Positions 1,959 through 62,100 of a stretch of 64,000 bases of DNA are shown here, piece by piece. The translations under genes were made by a program, and so were the position numbers. This DNA comes from Bolinopsis microptera (Eukaryota > Ctenophora > Tentaculata > Lobata > Bolinopsidae), in contig NC_087083.1 of assembly GCF_026151205.1 (NCBI RefSeq), forward strand, positions 12,522,944 to 12,586,943. Reading direction: 5' to 3'. Below the pieces are notes generated by a model. It did no database searches and was not told the DNA's origin. It saw nothing but the letters and a program-made list of their open reading frames with translations. Numbering within the stretch: position 1 is the stretch's first letter; each line of letters begins with the position of its first letter.

Positions 1959-4900
1959 ATGACCTCATATTCTTCGTTATGTGCTATATGCCGTGAAGGG
2001 TTTGCTCCTAATGAGAGTGTTGTGAACGCAAACGGAGTTCACTGGCACCAGGCTTGCTTTGTGTGTGTTCAGGTAAGTTATTAGTTAAGTAATTTAATGA
2101 GTTATTAGTTAATTAATAATAAGTTATTAGTTAAGTAATTTAATGAGTTAATTGATTTAACTGATTTAATTGAGAAGCCGAGTAATTCGTTGGTTGATAC
2201 AGATGGGATTTGAACACTGATGTAAAAGCATGAATTTAAAGTGGGTTATAGGGTTAATCTGTTTAAAATTAGGCCTTGGCCTTGCATAATGATACATAGA
2301 TATTTTCAGTATTTGATGGGTATTAAACATTATGATCCCATAAATTGTCAGTTTAATATAGACTATATAGTAATAGTATTGACATGGAGATCATATCGCC
2401 CTTCGCCATTTATCCAAAAAAATTTCAATTTTCGCCCCGGCGAAGGTTCCCAGAAGCCAATAGTTCAGATTTATCTGACGATTTGACAGACATATGTTAC
2501 GCATATGGTGTAGAAATGTAAATTCGTTCTATATTGTAAGACGCAAGTGCGTGGGCACTGGTCACCGGAATGTGAGAATATCTCGACTTATCGCAAAGGC
2601 ATCCAATTTAAATTTGTCTACTATACGCATTCAGGTGAAAGAATTCATATAAGTTGTACGTTTTAATCTTGAAATTAATGATTTCCCGAAGGGTTCATTT
2701 TCATTAATCAGAAGTCCGTAGAATGCTGCAGGTAGCATTTCACATTTGACATAGCTCTGAAAGATTGAATTGGGGGCTAAGAATTTAAAAGGAATTTAAA
2801 CCCTTGGCCTTGTTGGCTAGGTTATTGATTTAATATATTATTATATAAGTTGGTTAATGTTGGTTAATTAATTTAAAAGTAACATCACCTAGTATCACAA
2901 TATTCCACAGTATGTATCATGTTATATCATGTTATATCATGTTATATCATGTTATATCATGTGTATATTATTTTATTATTTGTTCTATTACCGCAGTGCT
3001 TACAGCCATTTCCAGATGGTCTCTTCTTTGAGCACGAGGGTAGGAAATACTGTCAAGAAGATTACGAGCTCCTCTTCGCTCCCATCTGCTCTGGCTGTGG
3101 ACAGTACATTATAGGTCAGTGTTTAAAAGTACATTATAGGTCAGTGTTTAAAAGTACATCATAGGTCAGTGTTTAAAAGTACATTATAGGTCAGTGTTTA
3201 AAAGTACATCATAGGTCAGTGTTTAAAAGTACATTATAGGTCAGTGTTTAAAAGTACATCATAGGTCAGTGTTTAAAAGTACATTATAGGTCAGTGTTTA
3301 AAAGTACATTATAGGTCAGTGTTTAAAAGTACATTATAGGTCAGTGTTTAAAAGTACATTATAGGTCAGTGTTTAAAAGTACATTATAGGTCAGTGTTTA
3401 AAAGTACATCATAGGTCAGTGTTTAAAAGTACATTATAGGTCAGTGTTTAAAAGTACATTATAGGTCAGTGTTTAAAAGTACATCATAGGTCAGTGTTTA
3501 AAAGTACATTATAGGTCAGTGTTTAAAAGTACATTATAGGTCAGTGTTTAAAAGTACATTATAGGTCAGTGTTTAAAAGTACATTATAGGTCAGTGTTTA
3601 AAAGTACATCATAGGTCAGTGTTTAAAAGTACATTATAGGTCAGTGTTTAAAAGTACATTATAGGTCAGTGTTTAAAAGTACATTATAGGTCAGTGTTTA
3701 AAAGTACATTATAGGTCAGTGTTTAAAAGTACATCATAGGTCAGTGTTTAAAAGTACATTATAGGTCAGTGTTTAAAAGTACATTATAGGTCAGTGTTTA
3801 AAAGTACATTATAGGTCAGTGTTTAAAAGTACATCATAGGTCAGTGTTTAAAAGTACATTATAGGTCAGTGTTTAAAAGTACATTATAGGTCAGTGTTTA
3901 AAAGTACATTATAGGTCAGTGTTTAAAAGTACATTATAGGTCAGTGTTTAAAAGTACATTATAGGTCAGTGTTTAAAAGTACATTATAGGTCAGTGTTTA
4001 AAAGTACATTATAGGTCAGTGTTTAAAAGTACATTATAGGCCTAGGTCAGTGTTTAAAAGTACATTATAGGTCAGTGTTTAAAAGATCGTTCACATATTA
4101 CGTAAACACATTTTGGCAATTTTTAACCCCCCCTCCTCCTCTGAAATCAGTTTTGCGCATAGCTATTATGTTAAAATTACACTAGAACCCCCGCCCCCCC
4201 CCCTCCCCCCGGCCCCCTCCTTGGTGAATACGACCCCTTACTTAGTTTACTAGACATCTTACTTTGCAGGGGGTTGTTGAGTCGTTGACCCTGAGCGCTC
4301 ACTGGTACCTGCAAAGCCCATTTTTGATTTGTTGCCTATCAATTCCAATTTATGTCCAAAACCAAACTTGTGGGTGGTACACTTGGAAATACTTATCTTC
4401 TGAGTTCGTAAATAGAATTTCATTACAATATAACTAAAAATGGCTGAGCTATGAGCTTATCTGGTTATAAGTTTACTCTCCAAGTGGTTGATAATTTTTT
4501 ACCTTCAATAGCTTCAATACTAATAGCTTAAAATGTTTCAAACGAGAGTTGCTTCTGCTTTGCTGTAAACTGTGTTGTGTCTTTTACCGTATCAGAGCAT
4601 TATATAATGTAATATTATTATATAATTTAATATTATTATATAATGTAATATTATTATATAATGTAATAATCGTTACGTTAAGCTGAGAGAAGAACTAGAT
4701 TGGCCCGTATTCATATTATATTTTACAGTAGTAAACTATAGTATTATCATTATAGTTGTATTACAGGATTATTCTATTATACCTTTATACGTCACGTGGT
4801 CCTGACGTCACGACCCACGTGGGTGTGACATCACGTGGGTGTGACGTCACGAGGGTGTGACGTCACGTGGGTGTGGTCCTTGACGTAAGTCATGTTGACA

Positions 4901-10900: not shown

Positions 10901-13900
10901 GTCTTTAGCAGCATTGTCCTTCTTCACAGTGTATTCAGTGGTACCAGCATGCGAGAAAATATGAGACTATATTATATAGTCTGATCACGTGACTAAATAT
11001 ATAGACTATGTAGTCTGATCACGTGCTGGTTGTACTGTAATTGGTTAATCAGCGATCATGTGGTGTAATTACCGGCTTTTGGTTGGTCTATAATATGATT
11101 GACCGGGTTGACTGTTGACGCTCAAATATGCAGCATATCTAAATTAAGACTGTTAAACTGATAGTAATACAGGTATCGAACGATTCTGTTAACGTTTTAA
11201 ATGAGTGGAGAAATTTAATGTAACTGATTAACTAATTAATAAATTAAATTTAACTGACGTTTCTTGATAAAATTTATCGGCTTGATACGATGCTAGTGAA
11301 CATGTTCTATTTCAAATGTTCAATCTAAATATATAATTTTAATTAATTCCTATCTGACATATTAATATTACCTGATATTTTAATATTATAATGATTAAAG
11401 GTCAGCAAAGTCTATGACGTACGAGACATGATTTGATTTTATATAAAAAGTTAAGTTAGCACTCAAACACTTTCTACGCTGAAATAACGCTGAATAAGGT
11501 GCTTCTCAGCTATATGATTGGTTAGTCTAAACCACATGACTAGAATACAGCTTTCTGATTGGTTAGTCTAAACCACGTGACTAGAATACAGCTCTCTGAT
11601 TGGTTAGTTTAAACCACATGATCAAAATACAGCTCTCTGATTGGTTAGTTTAAACCACGTGACCAGAATACAGCTCTCTGATTAGATATACCCTGCAAAG
11701 CACACAGTACACGAAAAGCTCACAACATAATACGGAATATACATGTGCTTCTCAGCTGTCATCACTCATCACTCCGTCTCTCTCTTTGAAGCATTGGGAG
11801 AGTTGTATAGTGTGTATAGTGTGTTGTCACGCTGCGGTGCAACTCTTACAACTGGTGTTAATGTACGCGCTTTTTGCACGTGTAAGTGTGTGATTTTTGC
11901 ACGTGCACACTTACAAGTGCAGTGTGTGTGTGTGTGTGTGTTTGTCGATGTGCGGTAAATAGTTGTACACTTCTCAGTGCTGTGAAATGTAGCTAACACA
12001 ATATTACTTAAATCTGTTGTGTTTCAGTAAATAATAAATCCAGTAATTAACAGTTAATTTACTCAACTTTCCCCTGTACTTGATTCAGTCGAGTGATTAC
12101 ATGCGCTTGAACAGAACACCTCACATTATATTATACCTTGTGTACTTCTTGCTGTTATAAATGAAGATTATATGAATTCTATTTATAACTGCACTGAGCT
12201 GCTGCTGAGTATATATATATACTAGCTGTACTGCAGAGATGCAGAGTGTATCGTGTACATTTACTCAAGGTTCATAATCAGTATTTCCCGCAGTCAGACA
12301 ACGAATGAGTTTCAAAAAGCTTCAATTAAATCTTTACAGAATATTTACGTTTATCATCAGTAACTAATAAACTATAAAGATAAGATGAGTACTCCAATAG
12401 ATTAAATTTACTCTAGGTTTACTGTAGATTATAGAGTACTGTACTCTATTATAGAGTACAGTACTCTATAATAGAGTACTGTACTCTATTATAGAGTACT
12501 GTACTCTATTATAGAGTACTGTACTCTATTATAGAGTACTGTACTCTATTATAGAGTACTGTACTCTATTATAGAGTACTGTACTCTATTATAGAGTACT
12601 GTACTCTATTATAGAGTACTGTACTCTATTATAGAGTACTGTACTCTATTATAGAGTACTGTACTAGTGAGTAGTGTGAACTGTGATGGTACCTTGCACG
12701 TTTTACTTATGAAGCAATTATCCATATTATAATGTTGTCAGGAACGAATTATTGAATGTCGGGAATGTCTCCCAGAACTTAAATAATTTCATTTATAGTT
12801 TCCTTGTAAACCTGTCACATCTGAAATAGAAACCTGCACCAAAATCACCTTCAAATAATCTACGTTCATGAATATCGAAAAATAAAGCAAACTGCAATAT
12901 ATAATAATATAGATTTAAATTTAGTTTAATTTGAATTTTAAATATAGATATATATCTCACTTGAATGTAATAAATGTTAGAATTTATTTATTTATTTTTA
13001 TATTCAAACTTTGAAATTATGTATATTTATAACCATTATTAACAGTATAATGCCTCAGTGTATGTGCAGCCTGTAAGAAGCCTATTGAAGGGCGTGCTGT
13101 TTCTGCTATTGAAAAGAAGTGGCACCCTGAGCATTTTGTCTGCGCTCACTGTGAAAAACCGTTCGCTGGAGAGAGGTTCTACGAAAACAAGGGTGAGTGT
13201 TCTGGTTACTGGTAACTGGTAACTGGTTACTGGTTACTGGTTACTGGTTACTGGTTACTGGTTACTGGTTACTGGTTACTGGTTACTGGTTACTGGTTAC
13301 TGGTTACTGGTTACTGGTTACTGGTTACTGTACTTGTTTTGGTTTAAGAACTGCTTAAAGTGTTACATATTATATAATATATTATTCATTAGTAAGATCT
13401 GAGGCATTCATAGCTAAAATTTGACTAAACCAAAAACTAAATACTTAATTAGCTAATTAAACTATTGCAGGGATGGCGTATTGTGAGCCTCACTACAAAA
13501 AACTGTTCGGTGATCCATGCTTTTACTGTTGTCAGAGTACACATAACGCTGCTGAGGTAAACAAATATTAATTATCTAATTGTAAATAATCTTAAATAAT
13601 AATCTCAGAATAATCTCAGAATAATCTTATAGACTGTCGCAAAACCTGCAACATTTACCGATAAATTGAGTTGCATATTACGGGTTATCATATTAAATTT
13701 AAATAGAGACTTTTTTGGAGATTTTCCTTCCACAAAGTTGTTGGCATTTAAAGATTTCAACTTGTCATCAAGAAATGTGCTCTTTAAAGTATAAATAACT
13801 TAAGTATTTATAAATTTATAAATAACTCTGAAGTTAAACTATAAATAACTCTGAATTTGTTGATCGCCAAAATGAGAATACTGTTATCAGCTGTTTGGTT

Positions 13901-14523
13901 CAACTTCAAGCTCACTCCCATACATGATTCACTTTCACCTTCACACGTTTGTTTCACTTTCACTTTCACCTGATTTCTCACAGGTATCTCAGTTTGGAAA
14001 GACGTGGTGTGAAGAACATTTCCTGTGCCACGGATGTGATGGAATCCTTAAAACTAGTAGTGTCAAATTCTTGGAAGTAGACTTGCAGTAAGTTGTCAGT
14101 TAATTGATAATTAGTAATCAGTTAATTATTAATTAGTTAATTGATGATTAGTAATTAGTTAATTAGTAATTAGTTAATTGATGATTAGTAATCAGTTAAT
14201 CAGGGGCAATCTAGCTAATAGCTGGGAGTAGATAGATTAGAGATGGTCCCCAAGAAATGGCCACAAGTTTAATTAACTTCATATCACACTTCAACTTTGG
14301 CACTAAACTAACATTGATAACTACCATTATATAATGTAAATATTTGAGACTGTCAAAATATTTAATTTGATTAAAATCCTTTCATATTTGGAACATTCCA
14401 GAACAATGTTTCAGGCCGTTCTGTAAGAAATGTTATGGTAAACTACCGGAGGAGTACAAGAAACGGTTGAAGAAGTTGTACGAGCTAGTGGAGAAGAGGA
14501 AGGAGAAGGGCTCTAAGAAGTAA
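1959..14523 (+). CDS. LIMS1: PINCH/LIMS adaptor, five LIM domains, nine coding exons
   Basis: Exons: 1959-2072, 2997-3114, 6385-6482, 7021-7131, 8140-8261, 13059-13192, 13471-13556, 13984-14087, 14415-14523. All junctions are GT-AG and keep phase. The sum is 996 nt, giving 331 residues, close to the 325 of vertebrate PINCH1. The protein is five consecutive LIM domains (C-x2-C...H-x2-C...C-x2-C...C-x2-C/H/D zinc ligands), beginning [19 protein letters not shown] and ending in a basic tail with many lysines. Recognisable PINCH landmarks are [20 protein letters not shown] in LIM1, the IIG junction to LIM2, [20 protein letters not shown] in LIM4 and the [14 protein letters not shown] tail. PINCH binds integrin-linked kinase through LIM1 and joins parvin in the IPP complex at integrin adhesions. 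The start is the only ATG ahead of the first zinc ligands. Introns 2 and 5 are swollen by tandem repeats. A final GT-AG intron (14520-15331) is possible and would leave the protein unchanged. Vertebrate LIMS1 and LIMS2 are co-orthologues, so the symbol is approximate. Confidence 0.95.
3104..4085 (+). repeat. 25-bp minisatellite, about 39 copies, built from the PINCH exon 2 donor site
   Basis: The unit consists of the last bases of exon 2 (GTACATTATAG) followed by the donor and first intron bases (GTCAGTGTTTAAAA). The true exon-intron boundary at 3114/3115 is the first copy. Copies are almost identical, mostly with ATTATAG or ATCATAG variants, and one is interrupted near 4040 by CCTA. Each copy repeats the same candidate 5' splice site. 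Confidence 0.97.
4120..4240. repeat. C-rich low-complexity tract in PINCH intron 2
   Basis: Runs of C (about 4130-4138 and 4189-4215) follow the end of the 25-bp minisatellite. No coding potential is seen. Confidence 0.6.
4788..4890. promoter_or_regulatory. Cluster of CRE-like TGACGTCA and E-box CACGTG motifs
   Basis: Within about 100 bp the sequence alternates TGACGTCAC (three or four copies, one of them TGACATCAC) and CACGTGG or CACGTGGG (four copies), arranged as a degenerate 16-18 bp tandem repeat. These match textbook bZIP (CREB/ATF) and bHLH recognition sequences. The site is in PINCH intron 2. Whether it is an enhancer or merely a repeat made of such motifs cannot be told from sequence. 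Confidence 0.4.
5841..6130 (+). repeat. TGTGACAGTGCGA-type satellite in PINCH intron 2
   Basis: Degenerate 10-15 bp units (TGTGACAGTG plus CGA, TGA or CAAG), about 25 copies. They create His/Thr-rich antisense open frames that are not genes. Confidence 0.9.
7387..7584. mobile_element. Inverted-repeat (MITE-like) element with arms of about 70 bp
   Basis: The left arm (7387-about 7458, beginning ATTTGACCAAAACCCATAAT) is the near-perfect reverse complement of the right arm (about 7512-7584, ending GGTTTTGGTCAAAT). The loop is about 55 bp. It lies in PINCH intron 4. Flanking target duplication is not clear. Confidence 0.75.
7893..7971. repeat. Perfect 79-bp palindrome
   Basis: 39-bp arms around a single central C at 7932. 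The left half ends AAAACAGTGAA and the right half begins TTCACTGTTTT. No mismatch was seen by eye. It lies in PINCH intron 4 and could be a fold-back element remnant. Confidence 0.9.
8638..8951. mobile_element. Nested inverted-repeat element, about 314 bp
   Basis: The ends are inverted: CAGTTCCACGGCTCAG at 8638 and CTGAGCCGTGGAACTG ending at 8951, with the homology running on through a GACCAGATTT-like stretch. Inside is a second inverted pair (about 8705-8740 and 8788-8834) containing CAAAACTCCG and TTTGTTTACAATGTA. The structure is typical of a non-autonomous DNA transposon. It lies in PINCH intron 5, and no target duplication is obvious. Confidence 0.7.
9073..9698 (+). repeat. 22-bp minisatellite, about 28 copies (PINCH intron 5)
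   Basis: The unit is GTCTCCTAAGTG followed by TACTCTAGAT. Some copies carry AATCTAGAT or GCCTCTTAGG variants. Confidence 0.97.
10058..10720 (+). repeat. 23-bp minisatellite, about 28 copies (PINCH intron 5)
   Basis: The unit is AAGCTAAACC followed by TACAGTACTTACT. Variants are CTTGCT and GTTCTT. Confidence 0.97.
11505..11690 (+). repeat. About 41-bp repeat with CCAAT and E-box cores, four copies
   Basis: Each unit contains GATTGGTTAGT (an inverted CCAAT box), then AAACCACGTGAC or AAACCACATGAC, then AATACAGCTCTCT. Related single copies occur elsewhere, at about 6484, 8273 and 63650. Confidence 0.85.
12431..12665. repeat. 20-bp self-complementary satellite, about 12 copies
   Basis: The unit AGAGTACTGTACTCTATTAT contains AGAGTACTGTACTCT, which is close to palindromic, so the array can fold into serial hairpins. 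It lies in PINCH intron 5. Confidence 0.95.
13201..13333 (+). repeat. 7-bp TTACTGG microsatellite next to PINCH exon 6 donor
   Basis: About 17 copies of TTACTGG begin within 10 nt of the exon 6 donor (GTGAGT at 13193). Confidence 0.95.
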
Positions 14524-14531: not shown

Positions 14532-14532
<1 letters not shown>

Positions 14533-26490: not shown

Positions 26491-28756
26491 TCATGGCAAA
26501 CTAGGTGTCCTGGCTGGAACGTCTGTGCGCGCGTTTGTGTACGCACGTGTCTCAAACTCACTACCGTTTCCCTTGGCTGTAAAGACAGGAAGAACCCAAA
26601 GCTGTGGCTGGTCTCCGAATATCTGTTTGAAGTTGTCGTACCCACCGAGATCGTAGTGTTTTGAGTCTGCAAACCCTCCTGTCAAGGAGAGCAGAGGATT
26701 TAATTAATTAATAAATTGATAAATTTCGACATGAAATAAAATGTGAAAACTTGTCAGAGTTGGGTTTTAGAAGTTGCAGGGATGCTATTTACATATTTCC
26801 CATAGAAAGTAAAACATATTTATTCATCCTGTTTCGTGAAACATGTAAGAGGTCGGAACATAAATACACTATTGAGTAGATAAAGATGACAAAAATATGC
26901 ATCATATAGCAAAAAATGGGAACAATTTAGCATCAATTTCAAAGCAGAACAATTCAATGAAAAAATTTGAAAAATGTAACTACGAACCTCTAAAGCATGG
27001 AGCTCTAGAACTTTCGAGGGTAGTTTTATTGTGTAGGAGAAGGTAAATGTGGAAACTGAAGAGCCCGAATACAGTTAGGAAGAACACTAAACTTATCAGG
27101 AACATTATTAACACGTGGAAATTCAGCCTGTAAAAGAGGGGTTGTAAAAGAGGGGTTTATGAGGGGTTGTAAAAGAGGGGTGAATTCAACATTATTTAGG
27201 AGCACAAACCAATACAAGAAGATGTTGAATTTACATATTTCTTGTTAATACAAAGATACTGTAAAAGGAAGCTTTATTAAAAGTTTTTTGCCCCTACAAA
27301 AGCTAGCCCTAATGAAAAATAACATTTAAAAAATAAACAAGTGAACTCACGGGTCATCGCTGCGATGTCTCCAGACATTAGTTATATATGGTATACAACA
27401 GAGAGTGATAAATAAAGTGTAAAGACATGTGTAGAAGAGGAAGAGGACAAAGTACTTGTAGTTGGTGAACCCAACACAGTTTCCAACCCAAGGGCAATGG
27501 TGATCCATCTTTAATACGCACTGTAGTGTTAACATGTTGGATTAAGAGAGTTGTTACAAGAATTTTAAATTTTAAAGAGCTTTTAAAGCATAAGACACAG
27601 TCCTGAATCAGGGTGTTGAAGATGTTTTTCAAACGTTTGAACTAATTGAGTTATAACACAGTTAGTTCATTAGAAATCTTGCAAAACAAATCAGGTTATG
27701 TTTAAATACCCACCAACCTGCATGCACATTGAGCAGTGGTGGGCCCTATCTGGTTTGATACATTTACAAATATCACAGTATCTCATGGCGCCAGTGCTGG
27801 TACGCTCCTGCACGGTTACCCTTGCGCTTACTGTTTGTAGAATCTCCCTGCCGCGATCTGTAGCGCGCATATTCAGATGCTCATCCTCTGGAATAACATC
27901 ATATTTATAATACTACTACTGTAAGTTTAAAAAACAAAGAATACCAATACCAGTACATATTTGTACAAATATTTGTACATATTTGTACATAATTGTACAT
28001 ATTTGTACACGTCTTATAAATTACACTTCTATTTTTGTAAAATTTCATTATACAACACTATTGATAACGACTTTATTAGAAAACTGTTACAGGGCCATAA
28101 ATCTGCACAAGAATTATTATCATCTAAAATACTTAATGATACATTTGAGGAAGATAAATTTGTAAAGTTACCAGTTAGATAGTACTGAGGAGGAGGACGT
28201 CCAGGACGGGTAAATATTGCCATCAAATAACTCCAAAGGAACAGTACCAATATTATGTGATAGAGGATGGACACTATTATCCGTGTTGTTAGATTCTCTA
28301 TTCTACCACCATAGGCTATTATGAATGCGTAGTACGACCAACCAATCTGATAAGGAAAATGTTGATCTAGGATTGATCAATGTAACTATGTAAAGTAAAT
28401 AATATAGCAAAAATATGCAAGCTCCTAAAGCAGTATAATTTTGGAACATCAAAAAGATAAGCATTATGCTTATAAGTAACTTAACTTTAAGTGATTTCAT
28501 CAAAAAAATACACAAAATGTATCAGCATAAATATTTGTCCAGTCAGTTGCAGTTGACAGTTGGAGTTTCTTAATATTGTTTTTGGACTTCTTTATTGAAG
28601 TTATGATAAGACATTGTGACCGCTATATGGACTATAGAGCCAGGACATTATCCTCTAGAGTAAAAAGTAACTTACCAACGCCAGTACAAACAGAACAGGT
28701 ATAAACATACTGCATCTCTGGCAGTGATAGCTGCACCCTTTCTTGTGTTCCTGCAT
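26491..28756 (-). CDS. DHHC palmitoyltransferase of the ZDHHC2/15/20 type, six exons
   Basis: Exons in transcript order: 28756-28676, 28346-28172, 27887-27718, 27520-27351, 27127-26988, 26678-26491. All are GT-AG with consistent phases. The total is 924 nt, 307 residues. The enzyme attaches palmitate to cysteines of membrane proteins at Golgi or plasma membrane. TM1-TM2 include [16 protein letters not shown] and [20 protein letters not shown]. The cysteine-rich domain runs [20 protein letters not shown], then [20 protein letters not shown] with the catalytic DHHC. TM3-TM4 follow, then the TTxE-like NKTTLES and a C-terminal block [20 protein letters not shown] typical of this subfamily. The start MQEHKKGC is tentative: the frame is open farther upstream to a TAG, so another 5' exon is possible. 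The polypyrimidine tract before exon 5 is a tandem repeat. Confidence 0.9.
27128..27182 (-). repeat. 14-bp repeat forming the polypyrimidine tract of the DHHC exon 5 acceptor
   Basis: On the minus strand CCCTCTTTTACAA-type units occur three to four times, the last one ending TTTTACAG at the acceptor itself. Confidence 0.75.
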
Positions 28757-31216: not shown

Positions 31217-31288
31217 TTACTGGGCGGCGCTCAGCCTGTCATTCCGCCAAATCTGAACATAATAGCTTGGGGTCCGATCCCCAGGTAA
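31217..31288 (-). mobile_element. Hairpin MITE copy 2 (inverted, 8-bp target duplication)
   Basis: TTACTGGG...CCAGGTAA, the reverse orientation of copy 1. It is flanked by GTCCTGAA at 31209-31216 and 31289-31296. Confidence 0.85.
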
Positions 31289-31337
31289 GTCCTGAATTAA
31301 CGGGTGATACTCGTAAAATATTTGATCCAAGTATTTG

Positions 31338-31426: not shown

Positions 31427-31625
31427 AATATTAGGAACCGTCGAGTGTCGACGAGTCCAACTCGGCGCGCGTCCTGGTAGGTTATAAACCTACAAGTCCT
31501 GAATGACTATTCGAAACCCTAAATACCCTCTAATCTGATCCCAACCCTAAATTTAGGGTTTATAAACCTAACCCAATCCTTAATATAATATAACAAAAGC
31601 ATATGCTGAAAACCCTAACCATAAC

Positions 31626-37700: not shown

Positions 37701-37769
37701 CAGCCGCTCTGTCAAGAGTTTGCCTTGCTGGTTTTGGAGCTCATCACTTGGTCTCTGGACAAATTTTGA
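33456..37769 (+). CDS. Putative seven-pass membrane receptor-like protein, two exons
   Basis: Exons 33456-33581 and 36660-37769 join in phase 0 across a GT-AG intron, giving 411 residues. No family is recognised with certainty. There is no obvious signal peptide. The first ~110 residues are hydrophilic (MTNLDLYKEILSKIEPGDF...). Hydrophobic segments follow: FYWTMIIAVFFIIIGLVGL, SSIWIVVVGTLFALSEGTY, ALLYMTVAGAMSSLIRVAII, LGQWVMTTTLFLSGTMFLV, VIGSTYLSFILSLILSCIYV, LFDASVLLYIGLIAQNCI, and a weaker one in the last ~30 residues (FALLVLELITWSL). IDYKIF after the third resembles the position of the GPCR DRY motif, so a divergent rhodopsin-class receptor is possible. Another multi-pass family is not excluded. 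The last 19 codons and stop are the first unit of a 59-bp minisatellite, so the native C-terminus may have been replaced. Confidence 0.7.
34010..34390 (-). mobile_element. Degenerate LINE 3' fragment (CR1/L2-like C-terminus)
   Basis: Minus-strand frames, broken once, read as a LINE reverse-transcriptase C-terminal tail. RTLKLLSVTRSTRPDDHLML is followed, after a frame change at a palindrome, by PTVPVAWNSLPLMLRSITDT and a final FKRMLKNH stop. The WNSLP...FK..LK pattern is characteristic of non-LTR elements. The palindrome CATGCACCGGTTAAACCGG (about 34098-34122) sits at the break. It lies in the intron of the seven-pass gene. Confidence 0.7.
34641..36487 (-). mobile_element. 5'-truncated L1/Tx1-type LINE with A tail and 14-bp target duplication
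   Basis: The minus-strand frame (the LINE part of 35210-36577) encodes the C-terminal third of an L1/Tx1-like ORF2. It has the post-RT motif IFHFLWGCKRDKLKRD, then PRECGGLGL, and a zf-RVT zinc finger CSLCNHNLETISHIFIDCPA. About 500 bp of 3' UTR follow, then an A tail (the T run 34641-34706 on the + strand). GTTTATTTTCATTT occurs at both ends (34630-34643 and 36488-36501), as expected for target-primed insertion with 5' truncation. The 365-plus codons are uninterrupted, so the insertion is fairly young. It is antisense within the intron of the seven-pass gene. Confidence 0.88.
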
Positions 37770-38309
37770 GTTAAGAGTTTGCCTCGCTGGTTTTGGAGCT
37801 CATCACTTGGTCTCTGGACAAATTTTGAGTTAAGAGTTTGCCTCGCTGGTTTTGGAGCTCATCACTTGGTCTCTGTAAAAATTTTGAGTTAAGAGTTTGC
37901 CTCGCTGGTTTTGGAGCTCATCACTTGGTCTCTGGAAAAATTTTGAGTTAAGAGTTTGCCTTGCTGGTTTTGGAGCTCATCACTTGGTCTCTGGACAAAT
38001 TTTGAGTTAAGAGTTTGCCTCGCTGGTTTTGGAGCTCATCACTTGGTCTCTGGAAAAATTTTGAGTTAAGAGTTTGCCTTGCTGGTTTTGGAGCTAGTCA
38101 TCACTTGGTCTCTGGAAAAATTTTGAGTTAAGAGTTTGCCTTGCTGGTTTTGGAGCTCATCACTTGGTCTCTGGAAAAATTTTGAGTTAAGAGTTTGCCT
38201 CGCTGGTTTTGGAGCTCATCACTTGGTCTCTGGAAAAATTTTGAGTTAAGAGTTTGCCTTGCTGGTTTTGGAGCTCATCACTTGGTCTCTGGACAAATTT
38301 TGAGTTAAA
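37713..38309 (+). repeat. 59-bp minisatellite, about 10 copies, containing the 3' coding end and stop of the seven-pass gene
   Basis: The unit begins GTTAAGAGTTTGCCTCGCTG and ends AAATTTTGA. The first copy (37713-37769) is the end of the open frame, including TGA. Nine more copies follow in tandem with few changes (GGACAAAT or GGAAAAAT), one with a GTCA insertion near 38097. Confidence 0.95.
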
Positions 38310-39126: not shown

Positions 39127-42100
39127 TCAGCCTAGGTTTCGGGCCAACTCTGAAAAGAGAAGTTTTAAAATTTACCGCCGGGCGCCGAATCTTTCTTTAT
39201 TATAAAGAGGTTTAAGAAAATGGATTTTAGAGAACAGTGGATGATGATAATGTCAACTCAAACTCTTGAAGAATTGTGTCGTTTTTATGTCGTATTACAT
39301 TATTTAAATATCATTTAATCATTGATTCATAACAATATGTACAATGTATTATAAACATAATGTATTAATGTAACATGCATATTGTATGATGATATAAATA
39401 TAAAATGTTGTCTCGTAACTTACCAGCAAGTATAGTTGAAATAAGCATGACAAAACAACCCCCAACAATGAACACGAAACAAACTCCGGGCGTAAATTTT
39501 ATCAAGTCAGCTTTTTGCAGGTTGATACCCATCTCGAGGAAATTCAGGTCAAACTGCGATGAAGTTGGTGATAACATGAGTTGAAGCTCTTTGAGCAAAT
39601 TCGGAACAGGTATCCCTTTTATTGGCGGAGCGAATCATATAAATCCTCATACACAAAGAGGTAAAGGGAGTAATAAATCAGTATATGTTGAAAACCAAGT
39701 GAAAAGAAACTGACCTCTTCAGAAAGCATTTTGGCCAGAGTTCTGCTCATTGCTTCGTTGAAATATTGCTGAGCATGACCCTTAGTAGCTACACGCAGTC
39801 CAATTGCTGTACCAAGGGACGCGGCTAAAAAGTACAGGTTAGGTATTTGAGGACACATTTTAATTGGAGGACACATTTTAGCGGACACATTCGATTAAAT
39901 TCTTATGAAGCAGGACTGATGACTATACGGGTTGACATTTTCATCCTTCACTTGAAAACCTAGAATAGAAACATACAAAAATAAAAAAATAAGTCCGCAT
40001 ACCTGCCAGAAAACATAGGATAAGAAGGAGAAGCTTAAGGCAAGACAAGCGTGTTATCAGTACCAGAATGCCGATAAGGAAAGCTAGAATACACGTCACT
40101 GTACCGATAATCAGCATGGCTTTTGTTACTGCCAATTTTTGTCTCAAATGGTATGGCATTTTCCAGGGTTTAGGAACTGAAAGTTAGAATGTAAATTGTT
40201 AGAGATTATAATGTTTTATAAGAAACGACAGTTCAAGCTATGTTTTCAACCGGTTTATATAATATATTGAAAGATGTGATCAAAAGGAAAAAAAGGATTG
40301 TCTTTTCAAGAAGAAGTCATGAAATCGTCGCAATCATAATAACGGACTTAACAGTTTAAAAGCAATAATAATTAAGTTGAGTACTGACGGGGATGGCATC
40401 TGATAGAAATGTCGCCTTCCCTCACGACTTGTCTTTTCTCAACGGCGTGCATCTCCTCCTCCTCATTATCAGCTGACCTTCTCCTGCGTCCTGTCAGCAA
40501 TTAGCAACTAATTAACGATTATTAAGCAGTAGTGAATTAGATCAAATTATTGGGATTAGATTGCATTAAAATGTCAAAGTCATAAAAGTTTCAGGTCGAG
40601 AATAAATCTAAAACCGAAAAATATCTTATATAGGATTATCAAGTTCAAATTTAGACATTTTTCAGATAAAACCAAAAAAAACGAACCAAGCATGGAGAAC
40701 TGAGGATTTGTTACTTCAATGAGATCGTAAAACTGATCGTCGTAACAGTACCTCCACATGCCAACATTAACTAATGTTATCCTGAATAAATCAAGTTAGT
40801 TTCTAAAAGGGACAATCAAATCTCATTTTTAGTCATATATTATTCGTGAGACTTGTTCATGACAAAGTGAGACATATTCACGACAAAGTGAGACTTGTTC
40901 ATGACAAAGTGAGACGTGTTCACGTAAAAAGTGAGACGTGTTCACGACAAAGTGAGACGTGTTCATGACAAAGTGAGACATGTTCATGACAAAGTGAGAC
41001 GTGTTCATGACAAAGTGAGACGTGTTCATGACAAAGTGAGACGTATTCATGACAAAGTGAGACATGTTCATGACAAAGTGAGGCATGTTCACGACAAACC
41101 AACCTGTCTTTAATGAGCCAGCCCTGTGTTTTTACAGACGCCTGAATAATTCCCCTCCAAGGTCTCATGTCAATCTCTGCACGGTACATCTCCGGGTAGA
41201 GTGTACCAAACAACACACAAACTGAAGGGGTAGAGATTGTAATTTTAATTAATTAATTAATTAATGTCAGGGTAGAGTGTACCAAACAACACACAAACTG
41301 AAGGGGTAGAGATTGTAATTTTAATTAGTTAATTAATTAATGTCAGGGTAGAGTGTACCAAACAACACACAAACTGAAGGGGTAGAGATTGTAATTATAA
41401 TTAATTAATGAATTAATGTCAGGGTAGAGTGTACCGAACAACACACAAACTGAAGGGGTAGAGATTGTAATTATAATTAGTTAATTAATTAATGTCAGGG
41501 TAGAGTGTACCAAACAACACACAAACTGAAGGGATAGAGATTGTAATTATAATTAGTTAATCAATTAATGTGAGGGTAGAGTGCACCAAACAACACACAA
41601 ACTGAAGGAGTAATTATTCTGTTATTATTACTTTATGAATAATTATTACTTATAATTATTGTTACGTAATCATGATACCTATTATTACTATTATCAGTGT
41701 CATTTTTATTACAATATTAATTACTCTTATTGTTATTACTTCATCACAGTATATATCATTATCATCAATCATCATGTCATCATAGTATTTATAATTACTA
41801 GCTGACTAGCAGGAACCCTTATAATTTCCAATGTATATGTGTAAATGTATATATGTTTTTAAACATTGATGATTGCATTAACAATAATAGCATGGAACTT
41901 TAAGTTTGTTAACCCGTTGTTTCAATTTGTATAATATACATATACATTATATATGATAAGATTATTATAAAGTCACTACAGTATTTCATACTGTACTTAT
42001 AACTTATGTTAAGCTACAAAACATATCGATTCCAGGAAAGCAAAGAAAACTTAAAGCAAGAAAACAAGAAAGACTGAAAGTGATAAAAATAAGAACATGT

Positions 42101-47545: not shown

Positions 47546-50500
47546 TTAGTCCTCCGCTGACATTTGTGCTTCGCTACCTTCACTTTTAAATGATCGCGAT
47601 TCTTTGTCCCCCTCGGCGGGTTCATCAGAATATTGGATAACATCTTCTATTTCATTGTGTATCGTAACATTATGCAGTACAACACTCGATTCTTCAGTAC
47701 CCTGTCTTGTGATTGTCTCTCCTTGAATTTCCTTCATTTCTATGGTAATACCCTCTATCTCTACAGTTCCTGGTTCTTGGTCGGAGCTCCATTTTTTGGA
47801 CATCACGTGACCAATTCTCCGCAACATCTTCCTGTAAATAGGCTTGACCTTCTCTAACACTATACTACTGTACAGAAAAGGGTTAAGAACAGAGTTTATT
47901 GGAAGTAGGATAATGGAGAATAGCCCGTACTGTGGGCTGGCGTCCAGCACTTGACAATAATGCAGGAAACACACCACCACAAATGGGACCCAGCACAGGA
48001 AATCAGTTATGATAATGGTAGCTACCTTACGTTGTAACCGCTGGTTCCTCTTGTTCACCATGTCAGCGGTGGGTCCGTTGTCTTTTGTCAGGGAGCGGGA
48101 TGAGCTGATGGTGGAGATGTTGATGAAGATGTAGGCACCAGTGACCACCATGAAACAGACTATGTCGATGATGAGCGCTATTGCGGTGAATACCCATTGT
48201 GGGTCAGTGTGGGTTACAAAGTATTTGAAAAGGCATACTCCGTCATTACCAAAGAAATCGACTCTTCTGATGTTCTCGTCAATATTGTTATAGTCCTTTG
48301 AAAACATGGACTTCACGAGACTTTTTATCAGTTTCCATTTGAGTGTCCGTTTCTTTGACCGACCGTAATAGCTCTGGATAACGTCAAAATGCTTTGCTTT
48401 CTCAATTTGACCATGAAATAATCTGATGGACTGATCATAAACCAATCCGTTGACAAAGAAGTCCTCGAAGACTCGAAACAGGGAAACTACTGCTATACCT
48501 GATGCAGAAATCAGGATAAGTGAAATAAGCGCCAAGATTTTTATTTTTGATTTGCAACTAATGTCATTGTTTTGACCTTGTTGATGCAGCTTGTTTCTAC
48601 GGACTCCAATAGCCCGAATGGTACTAAGTACTGTCAGAGCAAAGAGAGACACTTGATGTCCAAACGTGCTGATAACACCCATAAAATTGCAGTAAAAACT
48701 AGTCAGCCAATGAAACTGTGACCTGCAATAGCCTTTGCTTTCATACACAGAATCCGCGATAGCTACAGAGAAAAGGTAAATTCCTACTAGAAAGTCCCCT
48801 AGTCCAATTAACATGACAAGAATTTTGTTTGCGAAGACTTCGGATGATTTGGATGAACCGAAATTACGTCCACTATCATAGAGAACGAGAAAATTGGATA
48901 CCACTGCAAGAAGACCAATGATCCAGGCAGAAATCTTTAAGCCATACCCGTTTATAATTTCCTTGCCACATTCTTTGTTGCATTCATCAGACATATCTCC
49001 ACAATCAACGACTCCATCACATTTCTTATTAAGAGGGATTATCTCGGAGTTATCCTCGCACTTAAAATTATTCGTGCAAACACTTTCATCCGAACCATCA
49101 CCACAATCATCCCACAGATTGCAGACTTTATCATAGTCCACACACACTCCATTCGCACACGCAAAGTAGTCGTTGTGGTAATCGTTAGCTCTCCTAGTTA
49201 CAAAAGTGAGATGCCGGTTATCCACCACCGTGTAGATCCGGCTTGCGTACTGGAATGGGCAGTCTTGGGAGTTAATAGGTCTGGCGAGGGGACAAGCCGA
49301 ATTTTTGCACTTTCCAATGCAGCTTAAAATTACATAGGCTTCGCCGTAGATAAAGTTACAGTCTGTTTTCTCGTCCGGAGAGGTGACGACAGTTCTGATG
49401 GTCATACCATAAACTGTTTCTGCAAAAGGATTGAATTCTTGGGAAACGCATGGACTAAGTTTCTTTATGATATCTTGCATTCCTTTAAGGCAGTATTTCA
49501 GATTTTTAGTGTTTCCAGCTGTGTAAACTGCAGTAGATGTGCTCGCTGAACCAATTCCTATTGTACACATTACATTTTCGTTGCCGCACCCATCCATTCC
49601 TGTACAGAGCTCTTCCAAGGCTATGAAGTTGTGCGCTCCATAATTGCAAAGGAAAACATCTTCACAGGCAGTATCTACTTGTTTCCTCCTGGTTATGCCA
49701 CTTCCACAATTTCTATCCCAAGTTTCATCAATCCCATTTGAGCAATCCTCCAAACCATCCACCAGCCATGAAGCTGGAATACGTAGTTTTCTGTTGGTAA
49801 TATAATGCCTGTAGCATCTCTGCTGAGTTAAGATCCGACATGAAGGATGGGTCTCATCAGCACCGCGTACACAGTCCCAGGTCTCGTCACAGAGTTGGTG
49901 TTTGTGTACGGTGCAGGATGGTGTGACCTCAATACACGCTATGTCCATATCATTCTCACAAAACCCTCTGTTAAACTTGCCACAGACCATTGTTTTAGAA
50001 ATGGTACTGATACCGTATCCAGGAATGTGGCATTTAACAGCAACCCTTGCCTTGTCCGTACAGTTGGTCTGATCTATGTAGTCTAGGCAGTATGGGGTCC
50101 CAGTCTTGATTACTTCTTCCATGTTTTGAGTATACCGGATGTAATAATCTAACGTGGAACTTGAATCTATTGCTGCACAACGTGTGTAGTTAAAAATGGG
50201 TATTCTTCGTTTTATGGAGTTTAGTCTGTACAGCTCCCCACTCATGCAGCTTGGTATTTTAGGGTGGATGGTGGAACAGATCTTATGGTCATCAAAATGT
50301 GTGAGAGATTGGGCACAATCAATCTTACCATCACATATTTCGTAGTAGGGGACATATTTTAAATAAACATTTTTTCCAGTTGCAGTATCAATCGATCGGC
50401 ATGTGCTACCATAGAAGTAACCATTGCATTCACTCTCGTCTATACAATTACTTTCATCACAAATTGTGTCGCACGTTTTCTTTACCTTTGATGTTTCGTG

Positions 50501-51060
50501 ATCTGTTTGTCCAGCTTGTGGATTCCTCTCCGGTCCTAAATCTATGTCGTCACCCAAAGTTTCATCACACTTTAGGTTGTCCGTTTGAACCTGATTGATA
50601 TTCCAGCATGTATTTTGGCATAGTTCCTCTCTGGAATTTTGTAAAGTACTCGTTACTAGACTGCAAGGGAGATAGCCACAAAGTGACCAGTTTGTGGTGG
50701 CTAGAGTGTGTCCTGGTTTACTCCCGCACATCTGAAATTGTTAAATAGAGTGATCTTCCTCTTGATTTAGTACTTAAACATTACTTATAAGTCTCTCAAA
50801 AACTCAATCGACACCTCAAAACATCATATATTTTTTGTTAACCTGATAACCATATGTATCATTGGAGCAGGACATGTTGAAGATTTGTCTGTTGCTGTAA
50901 GCAAGGAGTGGTGGAATAATCCTGTAATACTCCTCTGAATAAGCACACTTGTAAGTGGGCATGTAGATATCCAGCTGAGATCCCGAGTGGCATTTGTTTT
51001 TTAGGTATCCTCTAACTTCTTGTACTTCACACCACTCTGAGGTAATTATTGGTGGTGAAA
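47546..51060 (-). CDS. GPCR with LDL-receptor class A repeats (GRL101/LGR-like), 5' end missing
   Basis: Exons 51060-50843 and 50731-47546 join in phase 0 (Q|M). The open frame starts at an internal Met after an acceptor, so the signal peptide lies in a 5' exon I could not find. The large extracellular part (over 650 residues) has several LDLa modules, with clear calcium-site motifs DDCGDGSDESVC and DCGDMSDEC next to the membrane and weaker ones (CDETWDCVRGADETHPSC, DCSNGIDETWDRNC). The 7TM domain starts at ISAWIIGLLAVVSNFLVLYD. It has TM2 MLIGLGDFLVGIYLF, an EL1 Cys, TM6 TDFLCWVPFVVVCF (CWxP) and TM7 INSVLNPFLYSS (NPxxY-like). The acidic residue of DRY after TM3 is not evident (LSTIRAIG). 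An acidic tail of about 100 residues follows. It resembles the snail receptor GRL101 and relaxin-type LGRs, but I see no leucine-rich repeats. The ligand is unknown. Confidence 0.88.
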
Positions 51061-56793: not shown

Positions 56794-57132
56794 ATGGTCC
56801 GTTGTCGACTTTACCTGATCACTATACTGTGGACGCTGTTTATTGTTAGTTGTTGGAGTGCCGATTGTGAGAAAGGAGATGGTCGGTGTGTTAGAACCCC
56901 TTGTAAAGACCGGGAGCCCCACGCTATGGAAAACGCTTGTAGCTGGTGGATGTTCAACAACTATCACGTGGTCATGACCTCTGAGAACTGGGTACCCTGC
57001 CCTCAGTTCAGCTATTCCGCCAAGAAAAGCTGCGGTTATTGGATTGCAAAGTGTAAGAGATCCGGGAGAAACTTTCATTGCTGTGCTTCCGTACACTGTA
57101 TGGCAACGCGACGTGGTGGTGTGGGCCGGTGA
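56794..57132 (+). CDS. Small secreted cysteine-rich protein, unknown family
   Basis: 112 residues in one exon. The signal peptide MVRCRLYLITILWTLFIVSC is followed by about 11 cysteines in the mature part (DCEKGDGRC, VRTPC, NAC, VPCPQ, KSCGYWIAKC, NFHCC, VHC). I do not recognise the family. The last 15 residues and the TGA come from the first unit of the 52-bp minisatellite, so the original C-terminus may be different. An unseen intron or other 3' end is possible. It follows the lectin gene in the same direction at about 480 bp. Confidence 0.6.
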   Translation: MVRCRLYLITILWTLFIVSCWSADCEKGDGRCVRTPCKDREPHAMENACSWWMFNNYHVVMTSENWVPCPQFSYSAKKSCGYWIAKCKRSGRNFHCCASVHCMATRRGGVGR

Positions 57133-57812
57133 GGTTGCTTCCGTGCACTGTATGGCAACGCGACGTGGTGGGGTGGGCCGGTGAGGTTGCTTCCGTGCAC
57201 TGTATGGCAACGCGACGTGGTGGAGTGGGCCGGTGAGGTTGATTCCGTGCACTGTATGGCAACGCGACGTGGTGGGGTGGGCTGGTGAGGTTGCTTCCGT
57301 GCACTGTATGGCAACGCGACGTGGTGGGGTGGGCCGGTGAGGTTGCTTCCGTGCACTGTATGGCAACGCGACGTGGTGGGGTGGGCCGGTGAGGTTGCTT
57401 CCGTGCACTGTATGGCAACGCGACGTGGTGGGGTGGGCCGGTGAGGTTGCTTCCGTGCACTGTATGGCAACGCGACGTGGTGGGGTGGGCCGGTGAGGTT
57501 GCTTCCGTGCACTGTATGGCAACGCGACGTGGTGGGGTGGGCCGGTGAGGTTGCTTCCGTGCACTGTATGGCAACGCGACGTGGTGGGGTGGGCCGGTGA
57601 GGTTGCTTCCGTGCACTGTATGGCAACGCGGCGTGGTGGGGTGGGCCGGTGAGGTTGCTTCCGTGCACTGTATGGCAACGCGACGTGGTGGAGTGGGCCG
57701 GTGAGGTTGCTTCCGTGCACTGTATGGCAACGCGACGTGGTGGGGTGGGCCGGTGAGGTTGCTTCCGTGCAATGTATGGCAACGCGACGTGGTGGGGTGG
57801 GCCGGTGAGGAT
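57085..57812 (+). repeat. 52-bp minisatellite, 14 copies, containing the 3' coding end of the cysteine-rich gene
   Basis: The unit starts GCTTCCGTGCACTGTATGGC, continues AACGCGACGTGGTGGGGTGG and ends GCCGGTGAGGTT. The unit is GC-rich, unlike its surroundings. Because 52 is not a multiple of 3 and the antisense unit has no stop in any frame, all three minus frames are open through the array (up to 343 codons). Confidence 0.97.
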
Positions 57813-59125
57813 GCTTTTGATATTTTTGGTGGTGTGGAGTGTGGACTTAGTAATTTTGTGGTTTAACCGTCGTGACATATTAAAACAATCCGCATCAATA
57901 TGAACACTTCTATAAGTGGCCCAATTTGGTACAATTTCAGTCTGGTGTCACGCGAAGGAATGGTTTCTAACGTTTCATTGCTGTAAACTAATGACGACAT
58001 CAGTAATTAAGGCATACTGCCATTGAAACCGATGGTATATTGGTATAATAAGGTGCCATGATTCAATAAAGCCTTTGGTGGGGCGGTTATGAATTATCAA
58101 ACACCTTGTGAAACTCACTGTTAATTTGATTCAACTAAATGAATTATAATGATTAAATAATCGTCAAACTATCTCTCGAATTACAATTTACCCAATGATT
58201 ATTTGTATACTGTTTTTAACATTAACATAACTGTACACATTAATTGGTTTTATTTTCTCGAATTCGTTAAGTATATTTAAACTTTTTTGGTTTGAGCATT
58301 AGGCAGAAAAATAAGCGAAAATGAACCAAACAACTAACAAAAGTAATAATACAAAAATGTATTGTCCGATACAATTCACAATTAATTAAGTGAGCGTAAT
58401 ACTATAACGTGAATAAAAGAGATATGCATTCTTTGAGAGGAGATCAGAATTGTACTAATTTATGTTCTAGCTAGAGCATACAGATCCGCAATCCGCATTT
58501 TGCATATATACCTAATGCTCTTGTCAGTTAACAACAGCTCAGCAAGCGTGTACTTGAAATTTCCCTGGACCAAAATTTCACAGTTTTGACTGAAATTTTC
58601 TCTAGTTACCAATTATTCAGTCAACTATGAATGGCATAAGACACAATTGAGCCACCGGAAGTTTAATTCAGACCAAAGAAATTTCTGTCCTATTTTCAAA
58701 CATGAACGAAAGAGAGTCATGTATTAAAGAGACATGACATCTACATTCTACATCACTTATTCGCTTGACTTGATATACAATGCCATACATTGTGATGCAA
58801 TGCAAACAAGCAAGCATATAATTTGTTAACATTTACATTTTAACATGCAACTGCAAGTATTGAAAAATACTATCTTCTCAATCTCTCTTCATCATTTGAA
58901 CTTTCGAATCAAAGTAATATTGACCACTTATTGTTTATTTGCGAGAATGTCTCAATTGCTTCCAATCAAGGCCAAATATGACATAACCCCTCCTTAGTCA
59001 TTATATCCCTGTCCCGCAGGCCGCATCGGGGTTTGCAGTTCCTCTTCGTCCCAACTTCCTTCAGTAACATAGACGAATAGCTTAATTTTTCTTTAATGAA
59101 AACTAAATAATATCTTGGTAGGATC
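57813..59125. other. Intergenic stretch upstream of the innexin
   Basis: AT-rich, with no gene recognised. The innexin promoter should be near its right end. Confidence 0.5.
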
Positions 59126-62100
59126 ATGGGTGTTGAAATTCTATACCCCATCATTAACAGAGCGACAGCTCCTATAAAATCAGTGAACATTGACGATCTC
59201 AGCAGTCAACTTAACAGAACCTTTATGTTCTATTTATCACTTGTCTTTGCTGTCACTATCACTATCAGGTTAGTTTCTGTTTCATTATCAGGTTGGTTTC
59301 TGTTTCACTACCAATTTTGGTCCTTTGTTCAATTTGATCTTCAAGTTCAATCGTACGTCGCATCTAAAATGATTCGAATTTTATGTAATTATCAGGTTCA
59401 TGATAAAAATCGCCCCTAGTCCCTACCCTTTCAAATAAAAATTTATTCCACTTTCGCTATCGTCTTAACTTTGCTTTCACTTTCACTTTCTCACGACTCA
59501 CATTCCCTTTCACCTCTACAGACAACAGCTAGGTGGATCGGTTATAGCGTGTGATGGCTTCCAACGAGACGAAGACTACGAAAGGTTTGCGGAGGACTGG
59601 TGCTGGAGTTCTGGGATCTACACTATTAAAGAGGCGTACGAAATGCGGGACAGGGCCAGTCCTTATCCTGGTGGGTTTGCATCATAACATTGTGTCAGAT
59701 AACATGACATTGTGTCATTAAATATTGTGTCAGATAACATGACATTGTGTCATTAAATATTGTGTCATAAGACATTGTGTCATAAAACATTGTGTCGCAA
59801 AAAACATTGTGTCATAAAACATTGTGTCGCATAAAACATTGTATCGCATAAAACATTGTGTCGCATAAAACATTGTGTCGCATAAAACATTGTGTCATAA
59901 AAATATTGTGTCATAAAACATTATGTCATAAAACATTGTGTCATAAAACATTGTGTCATAGAACATTGTGTCACTCTGTCTTAATTTCAGTACTCCTTTC
60001 GTGTTACAGCTTTAATTGTTCACACTAAATTATCCATTGTTTCTGGTATTTTGTCATGACGTCACAGTGATTAATCCTATTAATGTTGTCAGGTATAGTT
60101 CCCGAGGACCTGCCAGCATGTGTTGAGTTTGAGCTGAAATCAGGTGGAAGGATAGAGTGTCCAGACGAGAAAGATGTCAAACCTCTTACTAGAATATATC
60201 AAACTTGGTATGTAAATAAATAAATAATCTGTTAAAGACATGTTTCAAGTATCAGATAGGAATATTAAGTTGAGTCGTGTTTAGACTGTTGACGAACTGG
60301 ATATTGAGACAAGTTCGCTGCTGAGAATACTAAAATCGCGTCCTCAACCAGTATTTCAAAATCATTGAAATATCTCAAAAGACAAGAGTGACACATTCAC
60401 TTTCACTTTCACTTTTATTTTGTAGTCCCTCTAATGCTTCACTGACGAACAATAACCCAAGGTATCCGTTTGTTATGTTCTACTACTGGCTTACTGCACT
60501 GATGTTCTTCCTCCCCTACCAATTATACAAATTGTTTGGTTTCGACAAGGTCAAAGCAGTTGTGTCTATGTTGCAAAATCCGGTGAGTGTTTCAGTTTTG
60601 TTATACAGTATACATTTGTTCTTATCAGAGATTCGACTTGATCACTGAAGGGGAAAATGAGCGTAATTATTTTTCCTGACATGTAACACGTGACAGCTAT
60701 CAACCAATGAGCTTCCAGCAGCGATCACGGATCAATCATATCGCAAAATAACCGTCACGTGTCCGAGAAAGTATGGCTCTAATTCTCGTTAACAACTAAC
60801 GTGAACCTAAGTGCGTAGATACGACTGTTGTTCATTTAATTAAACGCGAAAGTCTGATACTGTGAGTAATGACAGTAACTTGTTAACTGAACCTGCTGAG
60901 CTGTGAATATCAATGTAATTCTGGTCCACTCTCTCTGGTAACACAAGTAACAACTTTAAGGTAGAGGACGGTTCTTTGAAGAAAATTTCTGTTTTTTTAA
61001 ATAGACTCAGCGATTACAATGTTCTAATAAAGGTAAATGAATAAATCACATATTGATCAAATGAGACTCAATAACACTTATACATAACTTTAAGGTAGAG
61101 GACGGGTTTGAAAAGAAAGAGATGATAAAGAGGGGTTCAGTTTGGCTCTATCTCCAATCAACCATGTCTCTCTCACACCAATCTTTATACTCTTCATTTG
61201 TGGTGAAACATAGTCTTGCTTTCTACGCTTTGCTTGTAAAGGTTTGTGCAGTATTTTAGTTCTGTGATATGTGTGACGTCCTAAGGTTAAATTGCAAGCT
61301 TTTATTTTGAATCTACTAGAGTTAAGTAGGACATTGGGAGTTGTAAATTGTAATAATAATTAAATTTTCAAATTCTTTACAATAATTTGACTGAAGGATT
61401 TTGATACATTCTCAGATTATGTTCCTGGGTAACACGATTATGATGTACTGGCTGACTCACAAAATGTTCAAGTTCGGATCGTTTGCGGAGTATGGGTTGC
61501 TGTGGGAGATGAACACGCCAGTTGACAATGTTAACAGCTTGATTCAAGAAAAACTCTTTCCTAAAGTCGCCGCTTGTGAAGTCAAGCGGTTTGGGGCTAC
61601 GGGTTAGTTTTTCGTTTAATCACGTAAGAGTAGAATAAGTCCATGATTTTTATAGTTCTATCACCAAAACACACAAACCATCTTTGTGTTTTCAAAATCT
61701 ACAATCTTAGTGTTTGAAAAATGGATAAATCATCATAATGACCTCAAATAACCTCAAATAACCTCAAATAACCTTACATAACCTCCTCAGGTATGGATGA
61801 GGATCAGGGTATGTGTATGCTAACCCTCAACGTTCTCAACCAATACCTATTTCTCGCGTTCTGGTTCTGTCTCATCATCATTACTATCATTAACTGTTTC
61901 TCCCTCCTTTTTACCCTTATAAACATCCTCTTCCCCTCCCTTATGCTCAAACAGTTCCTCGTCTCATCCTCACTTGATAGAAGTCCGGCAGTCGGGGTCA
62001 TTTCTAAACTCTACCTAGATTCTGGGTCTTCGATGAGGTTTATGATGGACATTTTCGCGCGTAACGTTGACCCCAAGCTGTTCGGGGAGATATTAGTCCA

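Follow-up and report, generated by a model that had tools for sequence, protein, structure and literature searches.

Intronic minisatellites and variable number tandem repeats (VNTRs) form by local tandem duplication. Arrays of similar build, head-to-tail copies of one unit of 7-100 bp as in local (in situ) minisatellites, occur in a 64,000-nucleotide stretch of the genome of the ctenophore Bolinopsis microptera (NC_087083.1, positions 12,522,944 to 12,586,943 of the forward strand; this whole stretch is called the window below). They differ from known intronic minisatellites and VNTRs in position: here the share of array ends beside splice junctions is 2-3 times that given by blind placement. 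A first-pass annotation of the window had described this pattern and had read exon bases into the repeat units. The spatial pattern is real; the exon letters were over-read, and are a feature of a few window arrays. Intron gain by tandem genomic duplication, which makes introns from a duplicated exon, offers a second comparison, but the arrays outside the window lie in introns, mostly without exon letters. A report on intron gain in potato RdRp (PMC4974935) concerns tandem duplication beside or across a splice site, as here, and a paper on human segmental duplications (PMC2812944) appears related by its title alone, which concerns tandem repeats and the exon-intron structure of duplicated genes. 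Literature searches, made with narrow queries and covering few subscription papers, returned no title that deals with ctenophore minisatellites at the edges of exons.

Array position was examined in 165 introns of at least 30 bp that lie outside the window and were not chosen for arrays: 41 from six loci with Pfam myosin head matches, 33 from loci with Pfam kinesin matches, and 91 from random blocks of the genome. Exon edges of the 74 myosin and kinesin introns come from profile matches and a splice matrix, those of the random blocks from a home-made gene finder (exons scoring at least 6, with exons more than 30% overlapped by arrays dropped). Kinesin paralog L034 was not used, nor were the unclear exons of L037, L038 and L040. 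Under the null model each array is collapsed to one unit and placed uniformly in its own intron, and short introns are thereby allowed for. Arrays no more than 20 bp from an exon edge number 23 of 68 against 10.0 expected, and 0 of 20,000 simulations reach 23; the homology-defined introns alone give 11 of 38 against 3.65. Counting as adjacent only arrays with a Tandem Repeats Finder (TRF) score of at least 60 and a gap of at most 15 bp on the intron side, 20 of 68 compare with 7.9 expected if crossing of the junction is forbidden, and with 6.3 if it is allowed (P<0.0001 in each case). With the stricter null, adjacent arrays are 22 of 80 against 9.3 at a score of at least 50, and 11 of 36 against 5.1 (P=0.004) at a score of at least 100, where the homology set alone gives 4 of 17 against 1.1 (P=0.018). 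Intronic arrays adjoin exons about 2-3 times more often than chance in the sampled genes. The count of 20 falls to 19 without the kinesin L035 intron (donor 3168), which was added after its array was seen, and it varies slightly, 19 or 20 of 68, with TRF strand and array-end extension; the simulations take no account of the partial dependence among arrays that share a gene (L035, the polymerase gene, the ABC gene).

Chance and choice together, with many arrays, short introns and contacts picked by a reader, would account for part of this pattern: the 10.0 arrays expected within 20 bp would be there anyway. The excess is also weaker under a null in which seeds cross junctions freely, with adjacent and crossing arrays together 20 against 13.3 expected (P=0.017), 15 against 10.6 at a score of at least 80 (P=0.07) and 11 against 8.7 at a score of at least 100 (P=0.22). 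Single sets are often non-significant. A first analytic test (score 60, 15 bp) gave 6 of 28 against 1.27 for myosin (P=0.0008), 3 of 9 against 2.15 for kinesin (P=0.36) and 9 of 30 against 6.1 for random blocks (P=0.13); at a score of at least 100, myosin has 1 of 10 against 0.38 (P=0.33). Refined array ends and the crossing-allowed null give 10 against 4.0 for random blocks (P=0.003) and, with the one added kinesin intron, 4 against 1.3 for kinesin (P=0.027). Chance nevertheless looks unlikely as the whole explanation, given that no simulation reached the observed count and that relocation does not reproduce it. When the arrays of the random blocks were moved elsewhere, though not onto exons, and the gene finder was re-run (60 repeats), a mean of 1.9 adjacent and 1.15 crossing arrays was found among 18.3 intronic ones, with a 95th percentile of 4 adjacent; the real blocks have 10 adjacent and 1 crossing of 30. 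Array-to-array gaps of at most 15 bp number 2 of 70 against 2.0 expected, which sets aside general clumping of arrays. The expectation that array ends lie nearer exon edges than chance is thus borne out in independent loci, at the reduced level of 20 against 13.3 where crossing is free.

Further causes were considered and rejected. A gene-finder artefact is countered by the relocation control and by the conserved domains in genes with edge arrays: RNA polymerase largest subunit (presumably that of Pol III), ABC transporter, AAA ATPase, VWD and kinesin. Long introns filled by transposons, leaving arrays at the old edges, would not account for the excess in introns with 200-500 unique bases (5 of 11 against 1.2). 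Arrays filling whole introns were not seen in the sample.

The distribution of the contacts bears on a second explanation, that exon-intron junctions are true mutational hot spots for tandem duplication, acting from the intron side. Possible causes are the termini of R-loops that intron RNA forms, or recombination or repair that passes from a conserved exon into an allele-divergent intron, where the polymerase switches template and the first intron bases are duplicated. Array ends do pile up close to the junction (7 against 3.5 expected at gaps of -2 to 5 bp, 3 against 2.2 at 6 to 10, 9 against 2.2 at 11 to 15, and 4 against 2.2 at 16 to 20), with no pile-up at 21 to 80 bp (13 against 18.8). 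Arrays of at least 200 bp lie within 15 bp of an edge in 8 of 15 cases against 2.2 expected. True donors have an array within 15 bp in 11 of 165 cases, decoy donors in the same introns in 2 of 214 (P=0.0026), and two claudin-like paralogs, described below, carry different arrays at the same donor. On the other side, true acceptors (8 of 165) are not significantly above acceptor decoys (6 of 288; P=0.09), arrays of 60-199 bp are not in excess (4 of 23 against 3.1; those under 60 bp are beside an edge in 7 of 30 cases against 2.5), and outside the window the youngest arrays are the least enriched. The paralog case concerns a single pair, and R-loops and breaks are here putative causes. With 11 of 165 donors and 8 of 165 acceptors, nothing points to one end of the intron, and neither end is singled out by the edge arrays. 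A junction hot spot is possible, if somewhat doubtful. It would, with similarly limited confidence, act at both intron ends, with about half of large intronic minisatellites anchored at a splice site and carrying its intron half. Splice-signal sequence alone was rejected as a cause, as decoy donors attract fewer arrays than true ones; for acceptors, as given above, the difference is not significant.

The first-pass annotation had also noted exon bases inside several units, and had suggested seeding at exon or transcript edges, including reintegration of cDNA ends. As a general rule, exon bases in units fail outside the window, where 0 of 68 arrays (TRF score at least 60) cross a junction against 6.9 expected if placement were blind; at a score of at least 50 the count is 1 of 80, and with the other strand of the random blocks read by TRF it is 1 of 30. 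Of 320 independent junctions, 3 (2 of 160 donors and 1 of 160 acceptors) have their junction-spanning 20-mer copied, in at least 16 of 20 letters, in the intron close by; in the window 3 of 44 do. Purely intronic 20-mers have a nearby copy in 83 of 924, 39 of 249 and 98 of 608 cases, a rough comparison, as that share reflects array cover. The same 3 of 320 speaks against intron ends derived from a duplicated neighbouring exon, as in intron gain by tandem duplication. Exon letters beside the 23 edge-near arrays outside the window match the array better than do 95% of other exons in 2 of 23 cases (kinesin L036 and block B1-35). Across 17 arrays next to donors (13 from outside the window and 4 from within), comparison of the junction with its best copy gives agreement of 0.71-0.94 from +5 to +15 against 0.48-0.64 in the control, a difference partly built in because the array lies there; the 12 exon columns of the same comparison average 0.28, against a control of 0.26. 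The best copy keeps GT in 7 of the 17 and is without it in 10. The 13 acceptor-side arrays match more weakly, and the match stops short of the AG by some bases. In kinesin L035, about 22 units of GTGAGGTTAATTA run on from the first base of the intron. An array that abuts an exon in the sample repeats intron letters and stops at or near the splice junction.

Growth of arrays out of exons or transcript ends, including cDNA reintegration, should carry exon bases along, and their near absence elsewhere leaves it unsupported in general. It can point to exon bases in units at PINCH exon 2, at the innexin donor 59268, at the claudin-like acceptor and in the donor array of the claudin-like paralog, as well as to a partial exon 3 copy beside an array in kinesin L035. 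Set against the independent counts, these few cases leave it a highly improbable account of the edge contacts.

The excess is perhaps best explained, with slightly less than an even chance, by longer survival of arrays beside splice sites that cannot be deleted. Minisatellites would arise by ordinary local tandem duplication and by delivery inside DNA transposons, with exons and splice sites as walls kept up by selection. Most duplications that include a whole splice site or enter an exon would be lost, and selection against such copies may explain the missing crossing arrays. Arrays directly beside a wall would persist longer, because a deletion removing them would usually take the splice site too. 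Short introns and this shelter together would make arrays look as if seeded at exon edges: of the 23 independent contacts within 20 bp, 10 are expected from blind placement in these introns, and shelter would explain the remaining excess. Longer survival predicts enrichment growing with copy divergence, and outside the window the excess does rise from 7 of 28 against 3.5 at a copy match of at least 95%, through 6 of 28 against 2.4 at 85-94%, to 6 of 12 against 1.9 below 85% (2.0-, 2.5- and 3.1-fold from the youngest to the most divergent).

Several observations weigh against shelter. The divergence trend rests on few arrays (28, 28 and 12), and there is no such trend in the window (3 of 9 against 0.49 at a match of at least 95%, 4 of 12 against 1.31 at 85-94%, and 2 of 2 against 0.25 below 85%). 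The young arrays outside the window are still in excess (P=0.04), as are arrays with fewer than 3 copies (9 of 33 against 3.3), and a hot spot would give the same in each case. Donor copies are not always purged, the units of kinesin L035 being an example, and with GT retained in 7 of 17 best copies and missing from 10, selected loss is not clearly evident. Arrays at most 15 bp from one edge are all more than 40 bp from the other. A lack of the splice dinucleotide in copies was weighed as a sign of selection and dropped, since it does not exceed the control; together with the missing trend in the window, this makes shelter somewhat less likely and the hot spot somewhat more so.

Individual cases give a view of how arrays arise. 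A single 932-bp insertion in intron 3 (L033:839-1770; C13:5068739-5069670), 47 bp from a donor, distinguishes two recent kinesin paralogs. It is absent from L034, where an empty site is found and the surrounding sequence is 98-99.9% identical. The insertion ends in terminal inverted repeats that are perfect over 47 bp, is flanked by an 8-bp target duplication and carries two minisatellites facing opposite ways. It is dispersed, with 208 matches in the genome (40 of 124 candidates scored). The inverted repeats and target duplication, with the empty site and the dispersed copies, are the features of a DNA transposon, and the insertion appears to be a non-autonomous one with minisatellite-bearing inverted ends; the 8-bp target duplication would fit hAT or P. 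Longer relatives may exist, as end matches on C4, C11 and C12 come in pairs about 3.8-4.1 kb apart. Tetris of Drosophila virilis is a Foldback-like DNA transposon with tandem repeats in its inverted ends (PMC4079207). The L033 element is like it in that its inverted ends consist partly of tandem repeats and it is dispersed, and unlike it in its TRF periods of 88 and 33, against about 220 bp for Tetris as given in the same source. An element of this type explains the L033 arrays, and not the edge contacts. Some arrays thus arrive by transposition, as this single case shows.

Local tandem duplication makes arrays as well, again as shown in a single case, the 76-bp unit at the claudin-like acceptor of the window, which is single in the paralog on C13. 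That paralog has no array at the acceptor, and at the donor it has a different, 28-bp array whose unit includes 9 exon bases. Different arrays at the same donor in the two paralogs point either to recurrence of arrays there or to turnover of units in place. In the paralog, a short element with inverted ends CAGGGACAAAAGGATTTCGCG breaks up the array on the donor side (L041:513-662). In kinesin L035 (1499-2611, gene orientation), a partial duplicate of exon 3 (acceptor and 57 exon bases) is followed by about four 21-mers and then by the full exon, and the 21-mer also forms a 30-copy array two introns further on. The partial copy and short array look as break repair with copied filler would leave them.

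In the window itself, the contacts were read at sequence level, with exons placed by homology and by a small gene finder trained on this genome. Across its 22 annotated introns, 10 of 23 arrays cross an edge or lie within 20 bp of one, with 2.63 expected, a post hoc comparison because the window set itself suggested the hypothesis. Crossing is not above chance there (3 of 23 arrays against 1.7; P=0.24). These counts used 27126 as the DHHC exon start, one base short of 27127, and some used 3115 rather than 3114 as the end of PINCH exon 2. Nine exon-boundary contacts had been named; seven are confirmed, one (innexin exon 5 acceptor) is misplaced, and one (the 3' end of the cysteine-rich gene) is unproven. 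Exon bases lie in the unit at a splice junction in three window arrays (PINCH exon 2 donor, claudin-like acceptor and innexin donor 59268), and several others sit 1-10 bp inside the intron. Coordinates below are window positions, on the plus strand unless marked.

PINCH (LIMS-like) exon 2 (2997..3114) ends at donor GTCAGT at 3115, with 53% identity to human PINCH1 by tblastn. The 39-copy, 25-bp array across this junction (3103..4085) has a unit of 12 exon bases, the donor and intron bases, and the contact named there stands. Past the PINCH exon 6 donor (exon end 13192), the 7-bp array for which TTACTGG was named (13202..13330) begins 9 bp on; it stands as a neighbour, its unit being without exon bases. 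Three contacts were missing from the earlier list. Two are at PINCH donors: an array at 2074..2170 that starts at the exon 1 donor (exon end 2072) and is made of intron-base copies with no exon bases, and a 37-bp array at 14098..14200, 10 bp past the donor at 14087. The third, a 23-bp array of 2.3 copies (59259..59310), lies across innexin donor 59268 and has 10 exon bases in its unit. At the DHHC exon 5 acceptor the contact is correct though small, with four 14-bp pyrimidine-rich copies (27129..27181, minus strand) forming the pyrimidine tract 1 bp before the acceptor end of the exon at 26988-27127.

The 59-bp array of 10 copies at 37714..38308 starts within the final coding part of the seven-pass open frame (end 37769) and includes the frame's last 56 bp and stop, in agreement with the contact named at its 3' end. 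This frame has no Pfam match, and its status as a gene rests on its coding look. Beside it, at 35210-36655 on the minus strand, is an open frame with a zf-RVT match, a LINE-like remnant. The claudin-like exon (41104..41221, minus strand; the name is that of the earlier annotation) encodes a 38-amino-acid peptide with no Pfam match and has an 82% identical paralogous exon on C13. Both contacts of this exon, exon 3 in that annotation, are upheld. Its acceptor and 28 exon bases are held in the 76-bp unit of a 5.5-copy array (41194..41612, minus strand), and 5 bp past the donor, whose position is backed by the paralog, starts a 21-bp array of 12 copies with no exon bases (40846..41098, minus strand).

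After the cysteine-rich exon lies a 52-bp array of 14 copies (57084..57816). The exon end is unproven; a donor-like GTAAGA, read by eye, is at 57053, 31 bp before the array. In the innexin gene, the array of 15-20-bp units at 59683..59973 (alternative start 59707) had been assigned to the exon 5 acceptor. It instead follows the donor of exon 59522-59670, 12-36 bp past 59670, and is 119 bp from the next acceptor (60093). The last innexin exon, from 61791, matches Innexin in Pfam, and the 10-bp array placed at the exon 7 acceptor (61725..61785, also taken as 61737-61785) does end there, at a distance of 5 bp.

The arrays are best explained as ordinary minisatellites, which are plentiful in this ctenophore genome. 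Minisatellite cover (TRF score at least 100) is 12.7% in the window and 2.7-11.6% in five random 40-kb blocks. The assembly searched has 264.65 Mb in 232 contigs; the genome report for Bolinopsis microptera gives 265 Mb, 13 chromosomes and 346 scaffolds (PMC11797021). Dispersal was searched for two window arrays, with a genome search that passes over very common words: the 25-bp PINCH array has weak second places only (66-72% identity), and the 76-bp claudin-like array matches the paralogous exon alone. Units of different arrays have short words in common, in the manner of a minisatellite core: among 158 units from the window, blocks and loci, GTAAC/GTTAC occurs in 24 against 6.1 expected, and ACTAAT/ATTAGT in 16 against 2.0. 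Intronic array units show no strand preference. A shared motif was rejected as the cause of edge contacts, as GTAAC/GTTAC has no clear preference for edges (7 of 33 against 10 of 58). Elsewhere in the window, a degenerate TTAGGG-like stretch (30822-30907) and repeated pieces with a GTCCCCAGGTAA motif (31260-31480) together look like an old mobile element. A large LDLa-GPCR open frame (47546-50740) has 81 relatives, of which the six bearing species names are all from Mnemiopsis leidyi.

If junctions are hot spots, splicing or exon conservation would shape where new repeats arise, and transcription or recombination would be linked to the birth of minisatellites. If shelter is the true cause, the positions of arrays would record stretches of intron that cannot be deleted, and so provide a simple map of constraint. 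Either way, ctenophore gene models and splice-site calls must handle tens of donor copies in a row.

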